A stretch of DNA of 21,305 nucleotides from a virus. A program made the position numbers and the translations under genes. The notes under the pieces are model-generated. The model was not told the DNA's origin and searched no databases. It saw nothing but the letters and a program-made list of their open reading frames with translations. The DNA is taken from positions 1-21,305 of the IMG/VR virus record IMGVR_UViG_3300025411_000102; one strand, 5' to 3'. Positions 8,511 through 21,305 of this stretch are shown here, one piece after another (position 1 is the first letter of the stretch; every line of letters begins with the position of its first letter).

Positions 8511-8529
8511 TTTATTATAAATATAAATA
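8511..8529 (+). promoter_or_regulatory. Doubled late promoter ahead of homing nuclease 3
   Basis: Two overlapping exact TATAAATA cores (8516-8523 and 8522-8529). The first sits in the same TTTATTATAAATA 13-mer seen at 1428 and 20315. Confidence 0.75.
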
Positions 8530-8547: not shown

Positions 8548-9144
8548 ATGACAAATAAAATTAAATATAAACAATATCCTGACAAGAAAGAATTTTCTGC
8601 GCTTTATAAAAATATGACTCAACAAGAATTAGCTGATTATTATAGTTGTAATAAATTAAGAATTAGAAAATGGATAGACCATTTTGGATTAACAAGACGA
8701 ATTCAAGGTGGTGGTAATAATAGAAAATACAATCTTGATGCTAAAACTTTGCAAGAATTGGTAGATGCTAGATATAGTAATGACGATATAATTAAATTAT
8801 TAGATATAAAAAACAAATCATCATTAAATGCATGGCTTAAAAAATTTGATATTAAAAGAAAATATAAAACAAATGAATATAAAAAATATTGTAGAAAAGT
8901 TCGGTGGCTGACAGAAATTGAATATTCTAAATATACCAATGAAATCAATCCTAATAATTACCCAAGAACTTTATGTGGGGTTGATGGTGGTTATCAATTA
9001 GACCACATAAAAGGTGTTTCGGAATGTTTTTATTCTGGCGTTTCTATTGAAGATTGTGCTTCAAAATCAAATCTACAAATGTTGCCATGGAAAAATAATT
9101 TGAACAAAAGAATATTTCACCAAAATAATAAGGATAATAAATGA
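8548..9144 (+). CDS. Homing endonuclease-like protein, HTH plus HNH-type
   Basis: A 198-aa protein inserted between gp62 and regA. The N-terminal half has two HTH-like repeats (MTQQELADYYSCNKLRIRKWI and, about 50 residues on, YSNDDIIKLLDIKNKSSLNAW) that would read DNA sequence. The C-terminal part has an HNH-like core: YQLDHIKGVSECFYSG, then SNLQMLPWKNNLNKR. It lacks the Cys pairs of the nuclease at 1465 and the NUMOD3 repeats of the one at 5434, so it belongs to a different family. The start has AAAGG 8 nt upstream and a late promoter before it. The stop overlaps the regA ATG (ATGA), and the AAGGA serving regA lies inside this gene. Confidence 0.8.
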   Translation: MTNKIKYKQYPDKKEFSALYKNMTQQELADYYSCNKLRIRKWIDHFGLTRRIQGGGNNRKYNLDAKTLQELVDARYSNDDIIKLLDIKNKSSLNAWLKKFDIKRKYKTNEYKKYCRKVRWLTEIEYSKYTNEINPNNYPRTLCGVDGGYQLDHIKGVSECFYSGVSIEDCASKSNLQMLPWKNNLNKRIFHQNNKDNK

Positions 9145-15777: not shown

Positions 15778-17868
15778 TTAATTTCCTAATTTATATTGTG
15801 AATTAATGATTTCGTTGTATCTAATATCATTTGGTCCAAATAAACCATATAAGTTTCTTTTATTATCTATTGTTTTTTGATTTTTATAAATGTCATAAGG
15901 TTTATAGAACAATGAATCTTTAATGATAACCTTTGAATAAACATCAAAACCTGGAACAGAACCCATGGATGCAATCAAAGCATTTTGTGCTGCCTTTTGT
16001 TCATCCATACTCTTTGCACCTTTATTGGCCGCAACCGCTTCTTTTTGTTTTTCTTCTTGCTTGTCTTTAGACTGTGGTTGTTCTTTACGATTATTAGAAG
16101 GTGCTGGTTGATTATTAGCTTGTTGTTGTGGTTGTCCGCCACCTTGCGGCGCATTATTTTGTGGACCAGACATAGCCTGTGACATTGGTGAACCAGCAGG
16201 TGCTTGTGGAGTAATTACAGAGTTTGTAGCCGCTGGTGATACAGAGGTTGCTGATGTGGTAGATGTGGTTGTTGGTGTTGATATTACAGAATCTACCGTT
16301 GTACTACCTGTTGTTGATGGCGTTGTTGATACCGAACCATTGGTATTTACAGATGTAGGATTACTTGCAGATACAGCTGCTGTACCTGATAAAGATTGAT
16401 TAACCGCAGCCGAATCTACGTTTGGTACTAAATTTTTGATTGCATATGCAGTATTATATCCTGAACAAAGTCTACTGTATAATGAGTCTTTTATACATTG
16501 AGCGTTAAGATATGCTTGCTGATATCCAGCACAATCTGTTGCATATAATGGATTAATTGAACATTGTTGGTCATGGTACGCTTGTTGATAACCACTACAA
16601 GTATTAGAGTATAATGGATTAACACTACATTGTTGTTGTGTGTAAGCCTGTTGATATCCGGTACAAGATGAAGAATACAACGGATTAATATTACATTGTT
16701 GAGCAGTATATGCTTGTTGATATCCGGCACAAGTTGAAGAATATAACGGGTTTATACTACATTGTTGTTGTGTGTAAGCTTGCTGATATCCTGAACAAGT
16801 AGTAGAATATAATGGATTGATATTACATTGTTGTGTGGTATAAGCCTGTTGATACCCAGCACAATCTGTTGCATATAATGGATTAATTGAACATTGTTGG
16901 TCATGGTACGCTTGTTGATAACCAGTACAATCAGAAGCATACAATGGGTTTATACTACATTGTTGGTCGTGATATGCCTGTTGATATCCAGGACAACTTG
17001 TGGAGTATAATGGGTTATTAGTACATTGTTGTGTTTGATAAGCTGCAGCATAGCCAGGACAACTTGTAGAGTATAACGGATTAGCAGAACATTGTTGTGT
17101 AGTATATGCAGCTTGATAACCTGGACAAGCAGTTGAATATAATGGATTAGCAGAACATTGTTGTGTTTGATAAGCTGCAGCATAGCCAGAACAAGAAGGA
17201 CTTGAGAGTGGATTAACAGAGCATTGGTCAAATGTATAATTTAAAGAAAGACTTGGGACTTTAATTTGAGGTCCATAGTATCCTGCCCAAAATCTATCAT
17301 CTTTACCATTAAGACTTAAACTGAAATTTGCTATATTGGAAGCTAATAAACCATTGGTAAAAGTTTCTGTTCCACTTAATGTAGTCCAATCAGTAGTTGG
17401 TCCTAAAGTCCAATTTTTGGAGTATAAAGATTGACCATTTGTGGAAGCAAAGTTAAGAGAAGCCGTTAAACTACCACGACTTGTTCCTTGATTTAAATAT
17501 TGAAAACTATAATTATAACCAACAATACTCATTCCACTATTTTGCAAAGCTTGACTAAATGCATAAGTGTAAGCAATGGTAGATTGAGTATAACCAAACA
17601 TAAATGTTCCGGTTGTTGTATTATAACCAGGTTGATTACCTCCAGATGTACCACCACCAGTTGATGTGGTTGTTGTGAATCCTGACCATGAATATGGAGC
17701 AGTTGTTCCTGCCGGTAAATTTGCAGGGTTTACTGTTGAATAAACCAAATTTGGAGAAGATAAGACACCAGTAAGTACTGTAGCCGTACCTACTTTAGTT
17801 GTCTGTGCATTACTAAAAGAAACGCTTATAACTAAAAAGATAGCCAGTAAAGCCTTTAATTTTTTCAT
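15778..17868 (-). CDS. Large secreted protein with twelve 22-residue Cys repeats
   Basis: A 696-aa exported protein. Residues 1-21 are a signal peptide (cleavage near SNAQ). Residues 22-213 form a Ser/Thr/Gly-rich, beta-strand-like domain. Residues 214-477 are twelve tandem 22-residue repeats with consensus QQCSxNPLYSxxC, xGYQQAYxx, two cysteines each (24 in all) at fixed spacing. Residues ~480-620 are a low-complexity Ser/Thr/Val then Gln/Asn/Pro/Lys-rich linker. The last ~70 residues form a conserved-looking end (SVPGFDVYSKVIIKDSLFYK, YDIYKNQKTIDN). The regular Cys pairs and export suggest disulfide-stapled repeats in an oxidising compartment. The role is unknown; cell-surface, virion-surface or envelope-modifying roles all fit. 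The ATG directly follows the previous stop. Confidence 0.8.
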   Translation of the reverse strand: MKKLKALLAIFLVISVSFSNAQTTKVGTATVLTGVLSSPNLVYSTVNPANLPAGTTAPYSWSGFTTTTSTGGGTSGGNQPGYNTTTGTFMFGYTQSTIAYTYAFSQALQNSGMSIVGYNYSFQYLNQGTSRGSLTASLNFASTNGQSLYSKNWTLGPTTDWTTLSGTETFTNGLLASNIANFSLSLNGKDDRFWAGYYGPQIKVPSLSLNYTFDQCSVNPLSSPSCSGYAAAYQTQQCSANPLYSTACPGYQAAYTTQQCSANPLYSTSCPGYAAAYQTQQCTNNPLYSTSCPGYQQAYHDQQCSINPLYASDCTGYQQAYHDQQCSINPLYATDCAGYQQAYTTQQCNINPLYSTTCSGYQQAYTQQQCSINPLYSSTCAGYQQAYTAQQCNINPLYSSSCTGYQQAYTQQQCSVNPLYSNTCSGYQQAYHDQQCSINPLYATDCAGYQQAYLNAQCIKDSLYSRLCSGYNTAYAIKNLVPNVDSAAVNQSLSGTAAVSASNPTSVNTNGSVSTTPSTTGSTTVDSVISTPTTTSTTSATSVSPAATNSVITPQAPAGSPMSQAMSGPQNNAPQGGGQPQQQANNQPAPSNNRKEQPQSKDKQEEKQKEAVAANKGAKSMDEQKAAQNALIASMGSVPGFDVYSKVIIKDSLFYKPYDIYKNQKTIDNKRNLYGLFGPNDIRYNEIINSQYKLGN
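16438..17229 (-). repeat. Tandem 66-bp repeat array, 12 units
   Basis: Twelve in-frame 66-bp units encoding the 22-residue Cys repeat. The first and last units are most diverged. Two 69-nt stretches, 16526-16594 and 16856-16924, are identical and lie exactly 330 bp (five units) apart, which points to recent block duplication or gene conversion within the array. Confidence 0.93.
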
Positions 17869-18817: not shown

Positions 18818-20311
18818 TTGTATACAAACGTCCAAAGTTTCAGTAATTATATCCTCTATCGAGGTGTAAAAAATGGTAAAAGAGTGAAGGAAAGAATTGA
18901 GTATTCTCCTTCACTTTTCATGCCTTCCAAACGAGTAACTAATTTTACCAATCTTGAGGGTGAATATCTTGACCAGAAAATCTGTAAAGATATTAAAACT
19001 GCCAGAGAATATATCAAACAATTTGATGGTGTTTCAAATGCACCTAAGATTTATGGTCAAACTCGTTATGAATATGCCTTTATTGCCGATGAACATAAAG
19101 GTATGGTTGATTATGATTTTGAAAAAGTATTGATTGGCATAGTCGATATTGAGGTCGGTTCAGAGAATGGTTTTCCTGACCCTTATGAAGCAAATGAACC
19201 AATTACTGCTATTGCTATTACCTATTTAAATGATAAGACTTATGTGTTTGGTTGCGGCATTTATGAAACACAAGGTGATGAAATCTATGTTAAATGTAGA
19301 GATGAATATACTTTGTGTAGAAAATTCATGGAACTCTGGACTAAAAAATGTCCAGATATTATTACTGGTTGGAATACAAAGTTCTTTGATATACCGTATT
19401 TGATTAATCGTTTTCGTAAAATTCTTGGTGAACCTGATGCCAAGAAATTATCTCCGTGGAATTTTATTGGTGAACGTAAAACTAAAATAAATGGCAGAGA
19501 TTTAATTGCATATGAGTTATTGGGTGTGGCCTCACTTGACTATATAGAGTTATACAAATGGTATGCTCCTGGCGGCAAGTCACAAGAATCATATCGTTTA
19601 GATGCTATTGCTCAAATTGAATTAGGTGAAGGTAAATTATCTTATGATGAGTATGACAATCTACACTCTTTATATCGTTTAAACTTTCAAAAGTTTATTG
19701 AGTATAACATACGAGATGTACAGATTATTCTAAAACTAGAAGATAAGTTGAAGTTGTTAGAATTAGCAGTAACTTTGGCATACGACACAAAATCAAACTT
19801 TGAAGATGTATTTGCACAGACCCGTATGTGGGATGCGATGACGTATTCTTATTTGTTAGAAAAGAATATTATTGTACCGCCAAGAGTAGTCAAAGAAAAA
19901 GACGGTATGTTTGAGGGTGCTTATGTTAAAGAAGTTCAAGTTGGATTACATGATTGGGTTGCTTCATTTGACTTAACCTCTTTGTATCCAAGTTTAATGA
20001 TGCAATATAACATGAGTCCTGAAACGTTAATTGAACCAGAAGATTATTCTGATGAGATGCGAAAGATTTTATCTGAGGGTGTATCTGTTGATGGCATGTT
20101 AATGAAACAGGTGAATACTTCCGGGCTGGTTACTGCTACATTAACACCAAATGGACAGTTTTTCAGAACAGATATCAAAGGATTTATGCCAAGTTTAATT
20201 GAAACGATGTTTGAACAAAGACAAAACGCAAAAAAAATAATGTTAAAAGAAAAACAGCAATTGGAGTTAGTTTTAACTGAATTGGAAAGAAGAAATCTTA
20301 GAGTTGAATAG
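18818..20311 (+). CDS. 43: gp43 DNA polymerase, N-terminal part (split gene)
   Basis: N-terminal 497 aa of the family B replicative polymerase. The 3'-5' exonuclease is complete: Exo I VDIEVGSE (Asp110, Glu112), Exo II GWNTKFFDIPYL (Asp191), Exo III YNIRDVQI (Asp300). Polymerase motif A, ASFDLTSLYPS, with metal ligand Asp385, is present. The reading frame ends in a charged helix (KIMLKEKQQLELVLTELERR) corresponding to the fingers, before motif B. Motif B lies on a second ORF at 21044 beyond a homing nuclease. The start is TTG 18818, since an in-frame stop at 18809 leaves no ATG; the start MYTNVQSFSNYILYRG fits the family. Activity would need non-covalent assembly of the two chains. Confidence 0.95.
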   Translation: MYTNVQSFSNYILYRGVKNGKRVKERIEYSPSLFMPSKRVTNFTNLEGEYLDQKICKDIKTAREYIKQFDGVSNAPKIYGQTRYEYAFIADEHKGMVDYDFEKVLIGIVDIEVGSENGFPDPYEANEPITAIAITYLNDKTYVFGCGIYETQGDEIYVKCRDEYTLCRKFMELWTKKCPDIITGWNTKFFDIPYLINRFRKILGEPDAKKLSPWNFIGERKTKINGRDLIAYELLGVASLDYIELYKWYAPGGKSQESYRLDAIAQIELGEGKLSYDEYDNLHSLYRLNFQKFIEYNIRDVQIILKLEDKLKLLELAVTLAYDTKSNFEDVFAQTRMWDAMTYSYLLEKNIIVPPRVVKEKDGMFEGAYVKEVQVGLHDWVASFDLTSLYPSLMMQYNMSPETLIEPEDYSDEMRKILSEGVSVDGMLMKQVNTSGLVTATLTPNGQFFRTDIKGFMPSLIETMFEQRQNAKKIMLKEKQQLELVLTELERRNLRVE

Positions 20312-20314
20312 TCT

Positions 20315-20327
20315 TTTATTATAAATA
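20315..20327 (+). promoter_or_regulatory. Late promoter ahead of the gene 43 homing nuclease
   Basis: TTTATTATAAATA with exact core TATAAATA at 20320-20327, starting 4 nt after the stop of the N-terminal polymerase part. Confidence 0.75.
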
Positions 20328-20358
20328 CTAAAGGTATTAAAATCTAAGGACAAAAAAA

Positions 20359-21054
20359 ATGAATTATATAAAACATTATATAAAACTTTGTAAAAAAGCA
20401 AAAAAAAGAACGGTAATATTTGAAAGAAAAGATTATGAAAACCACCATATTTTCCCCGAATCTATTTACGGAGAAAATAAAAATATTGTTAAGTTAACTT
20501 TACGAGAACACTATATTGCACACCATCTTTTATGGAAATTTTTTAAGAAAAGATATGGAACAAATAATCAAAAAACAAGAAAAATGGCACAAGCATATCA
20601 TATGATGGTATTAGGTAGTGATGGAGATAACCATAGAACAGTTAGTTATACTTCTAGACAATTTGCTTTAGCTAAACTAGCAATCTATGAATCTAAAAAA
20701 GGAAAAATAAGAAATGATTTAGTTGGAAAAAAATATTTTGGAGCTTCCGAAGAAACAATAAAATTTGGAATTGAAAAAATGCGTGTTAAAAAAACAGGAA
20801 TGAAAATACAAAATTATCCTAAAAATAGAAAATCATCTCCTTGTTCATCTCAAAAATCCAAAAAAATTAGTGAATCTAGGTTGAAAACAAAAGAAAAATA
20901 TATTAATATGACTGATATAGAATTTAACGAATGGGTGAAAAAACAAAATCCATTTAGAAAAGATGGTAAAAGGAATCCTAATCTTACAAGAGCTTTAGTA
21001 TATAGAAACAACGATGTAGAATTATATTATGGAAAATTAAATAATGGATTATAA
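20359..21054 (+). CDS. HNH homing endonuclease splitting gene 43
   Basis: A 231-aa basic nuclease. The N-terminal HNH block YENHHIFPESIYG followed by NIVKLTLREHYIAHHLLWK closely matches the HNH block of the leftward nuclease at 5434-6132. A NUMOD3-like helix (ASEETIKFGIEKMRVKKTG) and a Lys/Arg-rich second half probably bind DNA. AAGGA lies 8 nt ahead of the ATG. The last 11 nt overlap the start of the C-terminal polymerase ORF. There is no room downstream for a group I intron core, so it is a free-standing insertion, not an intron-borne one. Confidence 0.9.
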   Translation: MNYIKHYIKLCKKAKKRTVIFERKDYENHHIFPESIYGENKNIVKLTLREHYIAHHLLWKFFKKRYGTNNQKTRKMAQAYHMMVLGSDGDNHRTVSYTSRQFALAKLAIYESKKGKIRNDLVGKKYFGASEETIKFGIEKMRVKKTGMKIQNYPKNRKSSPCSSQKSKKISESRLKTKEKYINMTDIEFNEWVKKQNPFRKDGKRNPNLTRALVYRNNDVELYYGKLNNGL

Positions 21055-21305
21055 AAATTTATCTGATACCGAATTAATTGAAATGTATTATAATCTAAAG
21101 AAATCTATATCAAAAAATAATAATATACAGTTAGCTAAAAAAGTCGGATTAAATTCTCTTTACGGAGCATGCGGTTCTCAATATTTCCGCTTTTATGACC
21201 TCCGTATGGCTCTTGGTGTTACTACTGCAGGCCAGTTGTCAATTCGTTGGATAGAAGCAAAATTAAACCAATACATGAATAAGGTATTAGAAACAAAAGA
21301 TGTTG
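21044..21305 (+). CDS. 43: gp43 DNA polymerase, C-terminal part (continues beyond window)
   Basis: Second polymerase chain, opened by ATG 21044 (GGA 11 nt upstream, inside the nuclease gene). It begins with a charged fingers helix (MDYKNLSDTELIEMYYNLKK) and reaches motif B, KKVGLNSLYGACGSQYFRFY, then TTAGQLSIRWIE, all typical of gp43. Motif C (DTD) and the thumb lie beyond the window end. It is in the same frame class as the N-terminal part, which fits interruption of one original ORF. Little or nothing of the fingers appears lost at the junction. Confidence 0.93.
   Translation, partial: MDYKNLSDTELIEMYYNLKKSISKNNNIQLAKKVGLNSLYGACGSQYFRFYDLRMALGVTTAGQLSIRWIEAKLNQYMNKVLETKDV

Follow-up and report, generated by a model that had tools for sequence, protein, structure and literature searches.

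An HNH homing endonuclease gene inside a split DNA polymerase gene 43 of environmental T4-like phages, and sequence evidence for the spread of the split

The DNA analysed here, called the window, is a 21.3-kb fragment (21,305 nt) of a T4-like phage, known from an uncultured, metagenomic record (IMGVR_UViG_3300025411_000102). Together with genes for a gp46-like SbcC subunit, the clamp gp45, the clamp loader gp44 and five tRNAs, it carries the gene for the DNA polymerase gp43 as two open reading frames, 43A and 43B, with an HNH nuclease gene between them (Table 1). The 43A sequence matches DNA_pol_B_exo1 and the first part of DNA_pol_B, as well as phrog_262 and phrog_2062; it holds the exonuclease domain, motif A (DLTSLYPS) and the first fingers helix. 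The 87 visible amino acids of 43B contain the second fingers helix and motif B (LNSLYG), and the record ends before motif C. The remainder can be read in contig L002, which is identical to the window (100%) over all shared sequence, i.e. 5.6 kb to the left and 0.9 kb to the right of the HNH start. Its 43B is complete, with 367 aa, motif C (DTDS), the KKRY sequence and, at the C terminus, a clamp-type peptide (LEDFF), and a further replication gene lies downstream. Wherever 43B is complete among the carriers, it has this length and these three elements. Two PHROG families, 2062 with 502 aa and 1918 with 382 aa, fit such gp43 halves in length and score. Elsewhere in the window, the minus strand of 15778-17868 encodes a 696-aa protein of no clear family, in which a motif like QQCSINPLYATDCAGYQQAY is repeated many times in tandem.

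Table 1. Coordinates of features of the split gene 43 and of related loci (window positions unless a contig is named)
Feature	Position	Strand	Remarks
43A, N-terminal chain of gp43	18818-20311	+	TTG start, TAG stop, 497 aa
Left co-conversion tract, widest extent	19948-20308	+	motif A to end of 43A
Inserted cassette, 738 nt	20309-21046	+	43A TAG through 43B ATG; missing from intact relatives; exact ends inferred
Predicted hairpin pairing the HNH Shine-Dalgarno on read-through RNA	20311-20351	+	weakly significant
Late promoter TATAAATA	20320-20327	+	present in both cassette versions
Shine-Dalgarno AAGGA of HNH gene	20346-20350	+	
HNH homing endonuclease, 231 aa	20359-21054	+	phrog_655 family
Possible weak Shine-Dalgarno GGAAAA of 43B	21031-21036	+	within HNH gene
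43B, C-terminal chain of gp43	21044-21305	+	ATG start; record end cuts gene
Right co-conversion tract	21047-21208	+	43B start through motif B
Second HNH split loci	L111 790-4203; L129 2550-6050; L144 2-2411; L266-L312		

Where does the polymerase chain break? In an alignment with RB69 gp43, 43A stops at about residue 510 and 43B starts at about 528-531, and in L005, the closest intact relative, helices 456-484 and 488-519 of an AlphaFold2 model (mean pLDDT 84) flank the break point. Alignment and model place the break at the fingers tip, in the turn between two helices. An earlier note on this DNA had proposed that a homing nuclease splits gene 43 within the fingers, with the exonuclease and motif A on one open reading frame and motif B on another, and gene map, profile matches, alignment and model bear this out. 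The loss of motif C downstream, which the note had named as grounds for abandoning the idea, is not seen, as the L002 sequence puts motif C on 43B beside motif B.

The nuclease open reading frame matches the phrog_655 homing endonuclease family (E 1e-28) and is MobA/MobE-like; its tblastn relatives are annotated as homing endonucleases, consistent with a free-standing enzyme of the HNH/Mob kind. Relatives in phrog_655 include nucleases that adjoin T4-type nrdA or lie within topoisomerase genes, and to nucleases in these two places the window enzyme is 32-35% identical. No sequence relative was found in the PDB, and the predicted structure has a pLDDT of only 45. No GIY-YIG nuclease of the seg43 type was detected in the gap, the match being to the HNH family only. 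By its sequence the nuclease is thus an HNH enzyme, not GIY-YIG, which is new for a split gene 43. As the earlier note observed, the end of the nuclease gene overlaps the 43B start; the overlap is 11 nt. Two other nuclease sequences were encountered. An open reading frame at window positions 8548-9144 has a partial HNH-endonuclease match (phrog_8446) and is possibly a second homing gene, with two overlapping TATAAATA sites just upstream, at 8516-8529. A second, distant relative of the gap nuclease (43% identity) lies elsewhere on the L085 contig (L315/L316; positions 78403-79095 and 93892-94353).

The same split arrangement occurs in eight other IMG/VR viral contigs, from seven metagenomes, in two cassette versions. 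Could these halves be something other than two working chains? That the record is metagenomic and the fragment 21 kb long might point to an assembly or sequencing artefact, but nine records from several metagenomes, with two diverged cassette versions and frames open throughout, make the chance of this negligible, and the recurrence in other contigs refutes an assembly accident. Simple read-through is excluded by the TAG that ends 43A and the in-frame TAA two codons upstream of the 43B ATG. It is very improbable that the insert is spliced out, as a group I or II intron or through a split intein, to restore a single gp43 chain. Such cases have been described, gene 43B of Aeromonas phage 25 being annotated with a group IA2 intron and a split intein being reported in MIJ3 PolB (PMC6892783). 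The insert, however, consists of 47 nt plus the HNH gene, where an intron core would not fit, and Rfam searches of the window, L002, L084 and L085 returned no introns, even at E 0.1. The two chains end and begin directly in the fingers helices; no intein N or C blocks were found on 43A or 43B, and polymerase sequence runs up to the break. In Vibrio phage vB_VmeM-32 (L261, KU160494), the annotation of gene 43 comprises five pieces and, between them, an HNH/I-LimII-like open reading frame; the gene is probably intron-interrupted.

Nor does it seem at all probable that 43A and 43B are decaying remnants in a phage replicated by another polymerase. In other settings a split gene is often a pseudogene, but between the two cassette versions dN/dS is 0.07-0.09 at the end of 43A and 0-0.12 in 43B, like that of intact gene 43 (0.084). 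Both gp43 halves are therefore under purifying selection (dN/dS <= 0.12), every polymerase motif is retained across them, and no second gene 43 was found in the 120-kb contig of carrier L085, which has the two halves only. The HNH gene has a value of 0.22. Selection appears to maintain all three, the nuclease as well as the two halves. Assembly of two chains is the most likely way in which 43A and 43B work, and the phage 25 proteins of these names copurify and polymerise, according to the account of that phage in PMC2988022.

Comparison of carriers with each other and with intact relatives points to movement of the insert together with its flanks. L084 and L085 are 100% identical in the HNH gene and the adjoining 43A and 43B codons, on backbones 82% (43A) and 71% (43B) identical. 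L002 and L085 agree at 92.4% in the insert and 92.8% in the flanks, against 75.8% in the backbone (Fisher p 9e-26 and 4e-12, guides only, as the test treats sites as independent). L005 lacks the nuclease and is 92-98% identical to L002 over most of gene 43, with identity falling to 63% and 62% in the ~100 nt on each flank of the insert (p 2e-14 and 3e-28, guides in the same sense); the drop is steepest in the last ~140 nt of the left tract. Intact gene 43 copies show no special divergence at these positions. L002 and L004 are 100% identical outside the motif A-to-motif B tract and diverged inside it, so that by sequence the two cassette versions are present in one backbone. A value of 42% for the ungapped left-flank identity between cassette versions was discarded, since a 1-nt leader indel had produced it.

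The flanks differ in kind as well. All carriers have motif A as DLTSLYPS and motif B as GLNSLYGACG (window 19960-20000 and 21150-21180), and intact relatives have DLNSLYPH and SLNSAYGALG. The fingers region has ~83 residues in carriers, about 20 more than the 63 found in 224/224 fingers sequences of intact relatives, a count in which some loci overlap. Taken together, the mosaics, the altered motifs A and B and the longer fingers indicate that the nuclease travels with active-site codons from another polymerase lineage. These comparisons are direct evidence that the split and neighbouring active-site codons are copied between phage lineages; spreading of this kind is new relative to the known cases of split gp43.

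The cassette begins after GAA (20306-20308), the last codon of the helix, stops before GAT (21047), and is ordered as the 43A TAG, a late promoter, a strong ribosome-binding site, the HNH gene and, at its right end, the 43B ATG; the HNH stop codon is situated within polymerase codons. As no uninterrupted allele turned up, these boundaries are putative. The late promoter that the earlier note had placed between the halves is confirmed as TATAAATA, a sequence with nine sites in the window against 3.3 expected (0/100 shuffles reach nine). What does it serve? On RNA reading through from 43A, the nuclease Shine-Dalgarno is predicted to be 22% unpaired in the window version and 4-30% unpaired in others, whereas on RNA from the late promoter, without the 5' arm of the hairpin, the predicted figure is 84-90%. 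The pairing is common to both cassette versions and is weakly better than chance (11/200 and 24/300 shuffles in two runs). Since the hairpin would mask the nuclease ribosome-binding site when RNA reads through from 43A, and late RNA cannot form it, the promoter looks aimed at the nuclease, with additional late 43B as a by-product. The earlier note had thought of late transcripts for 43B; this is plausible, and the promoter may even be there chiefly for 43B, but the account is incomplete, the predicted hairpin suggesting the nuclease as the beneficiary instead. Hairpin control of this type is described for I-TevI, segB and Aeh1 mobE (PMC2988022).

How does the locus compare with known systems? 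Aeromonas phage 25 (43A - seg43 - 43B) has the same gene broken at the fingers tip, a homing endonuclease in the gap and a 43A of 498 aa, against 497 aa in the window. Its Seg43, however, is a SegD-like GIY-YIG enzyme, and the window enzyme is an unrelated HNH. Aeromonas phage 44RR2.8t shares the break region, the two chains and a 43A of 498 aa, but its gap is an untranslated intercistronic stretch of ~50 nt without a nuclease gene, where the window gap carries the HNH gene. The earlier note could not tell whether the Aeromonas split lies at the same site; in phages 25 and 44RR it is at the same structural place, the fingers tip. Synechococcus phage ACG-2014f (Kyanoviridae; L247 1681-4697, KJ019148) is also broken in this region. 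Its 43A has 491 aa, the best-scoring families for its halves are phrog_2062 and phrog_1918, both of which match the window halves too, and its gap of ~370 nt holds two small open reading frames and no recognised homing gene; in the literature searched, no paper discussing this split was found. HNH genes that split a core DNA-metabolism gene, as here, are seen in Aeh1 (mobE in nrdA) and in topoisomerase genes (T4-type mobA-like HNH genes, for example in Acinetobacter phage Stupor). Aeh1 mobE shares the late promoter and the ribosome-binding-site hairpin with the window HNH (PMC2988022), but in both cases the target gene differs from gene 43. Split gp43, seen in a few phage isolates, and HNH-split core genes are each already known, and it is the HNH split of gp43 that is new; no paper reporting it was found in the literature searched.

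We consider it highly probable that a free-standing HNH homing endonuclease gene sits in the fingers-tip codons of gene 43, that the polymerase is made as two chains and that the cassette is copied with its flanks. The cassette would supply the 43A stop, the late promoter, the nuclease gene and the restart ATG of 43B, leaving the polymerase as two chains. In a co-infection the nuclease would cut the other phage's gene 43 where this is uninterrupted, and the cassette, with about 100-350 bp of polymerase codons from its flanks, would be copied in during repair. The chains, one with the exonuclease and motif A, the other with motifs B and C and the thumb, would come together again by way of the two fingers helices and form a functional replicase, as is reported for phage 25. 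The nuclease would be made late, its ribosome-binding site being paired on early and middle read-through RNA, and 43B may be translated from its own weak site.

Did the nuclease make the split, or did it come later? It is possible, though we think it unlikely, that gene 43 was first split by another cause and that the HNH gene entered the gap afterwards and hitch-hikes with the split allele. For seg43 in phage 25, later invasion of the gap has been suggested. The carriers' fingers differ from those of all intact relatives and exceed them in length, and no uninterrupted allele with long fingers was found in phages or IMG/VR: the hits to joined flank peptides were all carriers, relatives with short fingers or remote cyanophages, RN05-S being the best of the last at 43%. 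That gene 43 of ACG-2014f is broken at this very place, with no homing gene present, fits this order of events as well. Against it, the cassette ends match the split exactly, with stop, promoter, nuclease and restart codon and no spare sequence, and no HNH-free split allele of the lineage was found in IMG/VR and phage searches. In phage 25 (Petrov et al., 2010, as cited in PMC2988022) there was no close unsplit relative by which to tell if the split had been made, or moved, by the nuclease; in the window lineage, unlike phage 25, the mosaics show cassette movement.

The split state might itself be an inherited trait. We offer this tentatively, as a possibility somewhat short of probable. The cassette would carry a co-adapted, split-tolerant module, from motif A to motif B and including the fingers helices that are about 20 residues longer, into phages whose polymerase is intact, a recipient's replicase would become two-subunit in one step, the longer helices would form the interface between the chains, and the nuclease would be hard to lose, the recipient's fingers codons having been replaced.

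Gene 43 is also split elsewhere. In ~45 other environmental contigs the break follows directly on motif A, and the gene lodged there encodes an HNH protein of ~177-190 aa unrelated to the first. One search gave 47 loci that carry it, including L111 and L144; both polymerase halves are seen around it in 44/47, and the other three end before the second half. Rfam introns were absent from L111, L129 and L144, and in the phage isolates of the collection only a short partial match to this HNH was found, outside gene 43. These HNH genes are up to 92% identical in phages whose 43A are 56% identical, a disparity by which the gene appears to home independently. Counting both cases, free-standing HNH genes split gene 43 recurrently in these phages.

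Can a homing nuclease break up an essential replicase gene and afterwards spread the broken form? In its treatment of phage 25, PMC2988022 leaves this open. Intact and split alleles in close relatives, two cassettes in one backbone and identical cassettes in different backbones make the question testable. Together, the two HNH splits suggest that environmental T4-like phages commonly have two-chain replicases, and that these are under-annotated.
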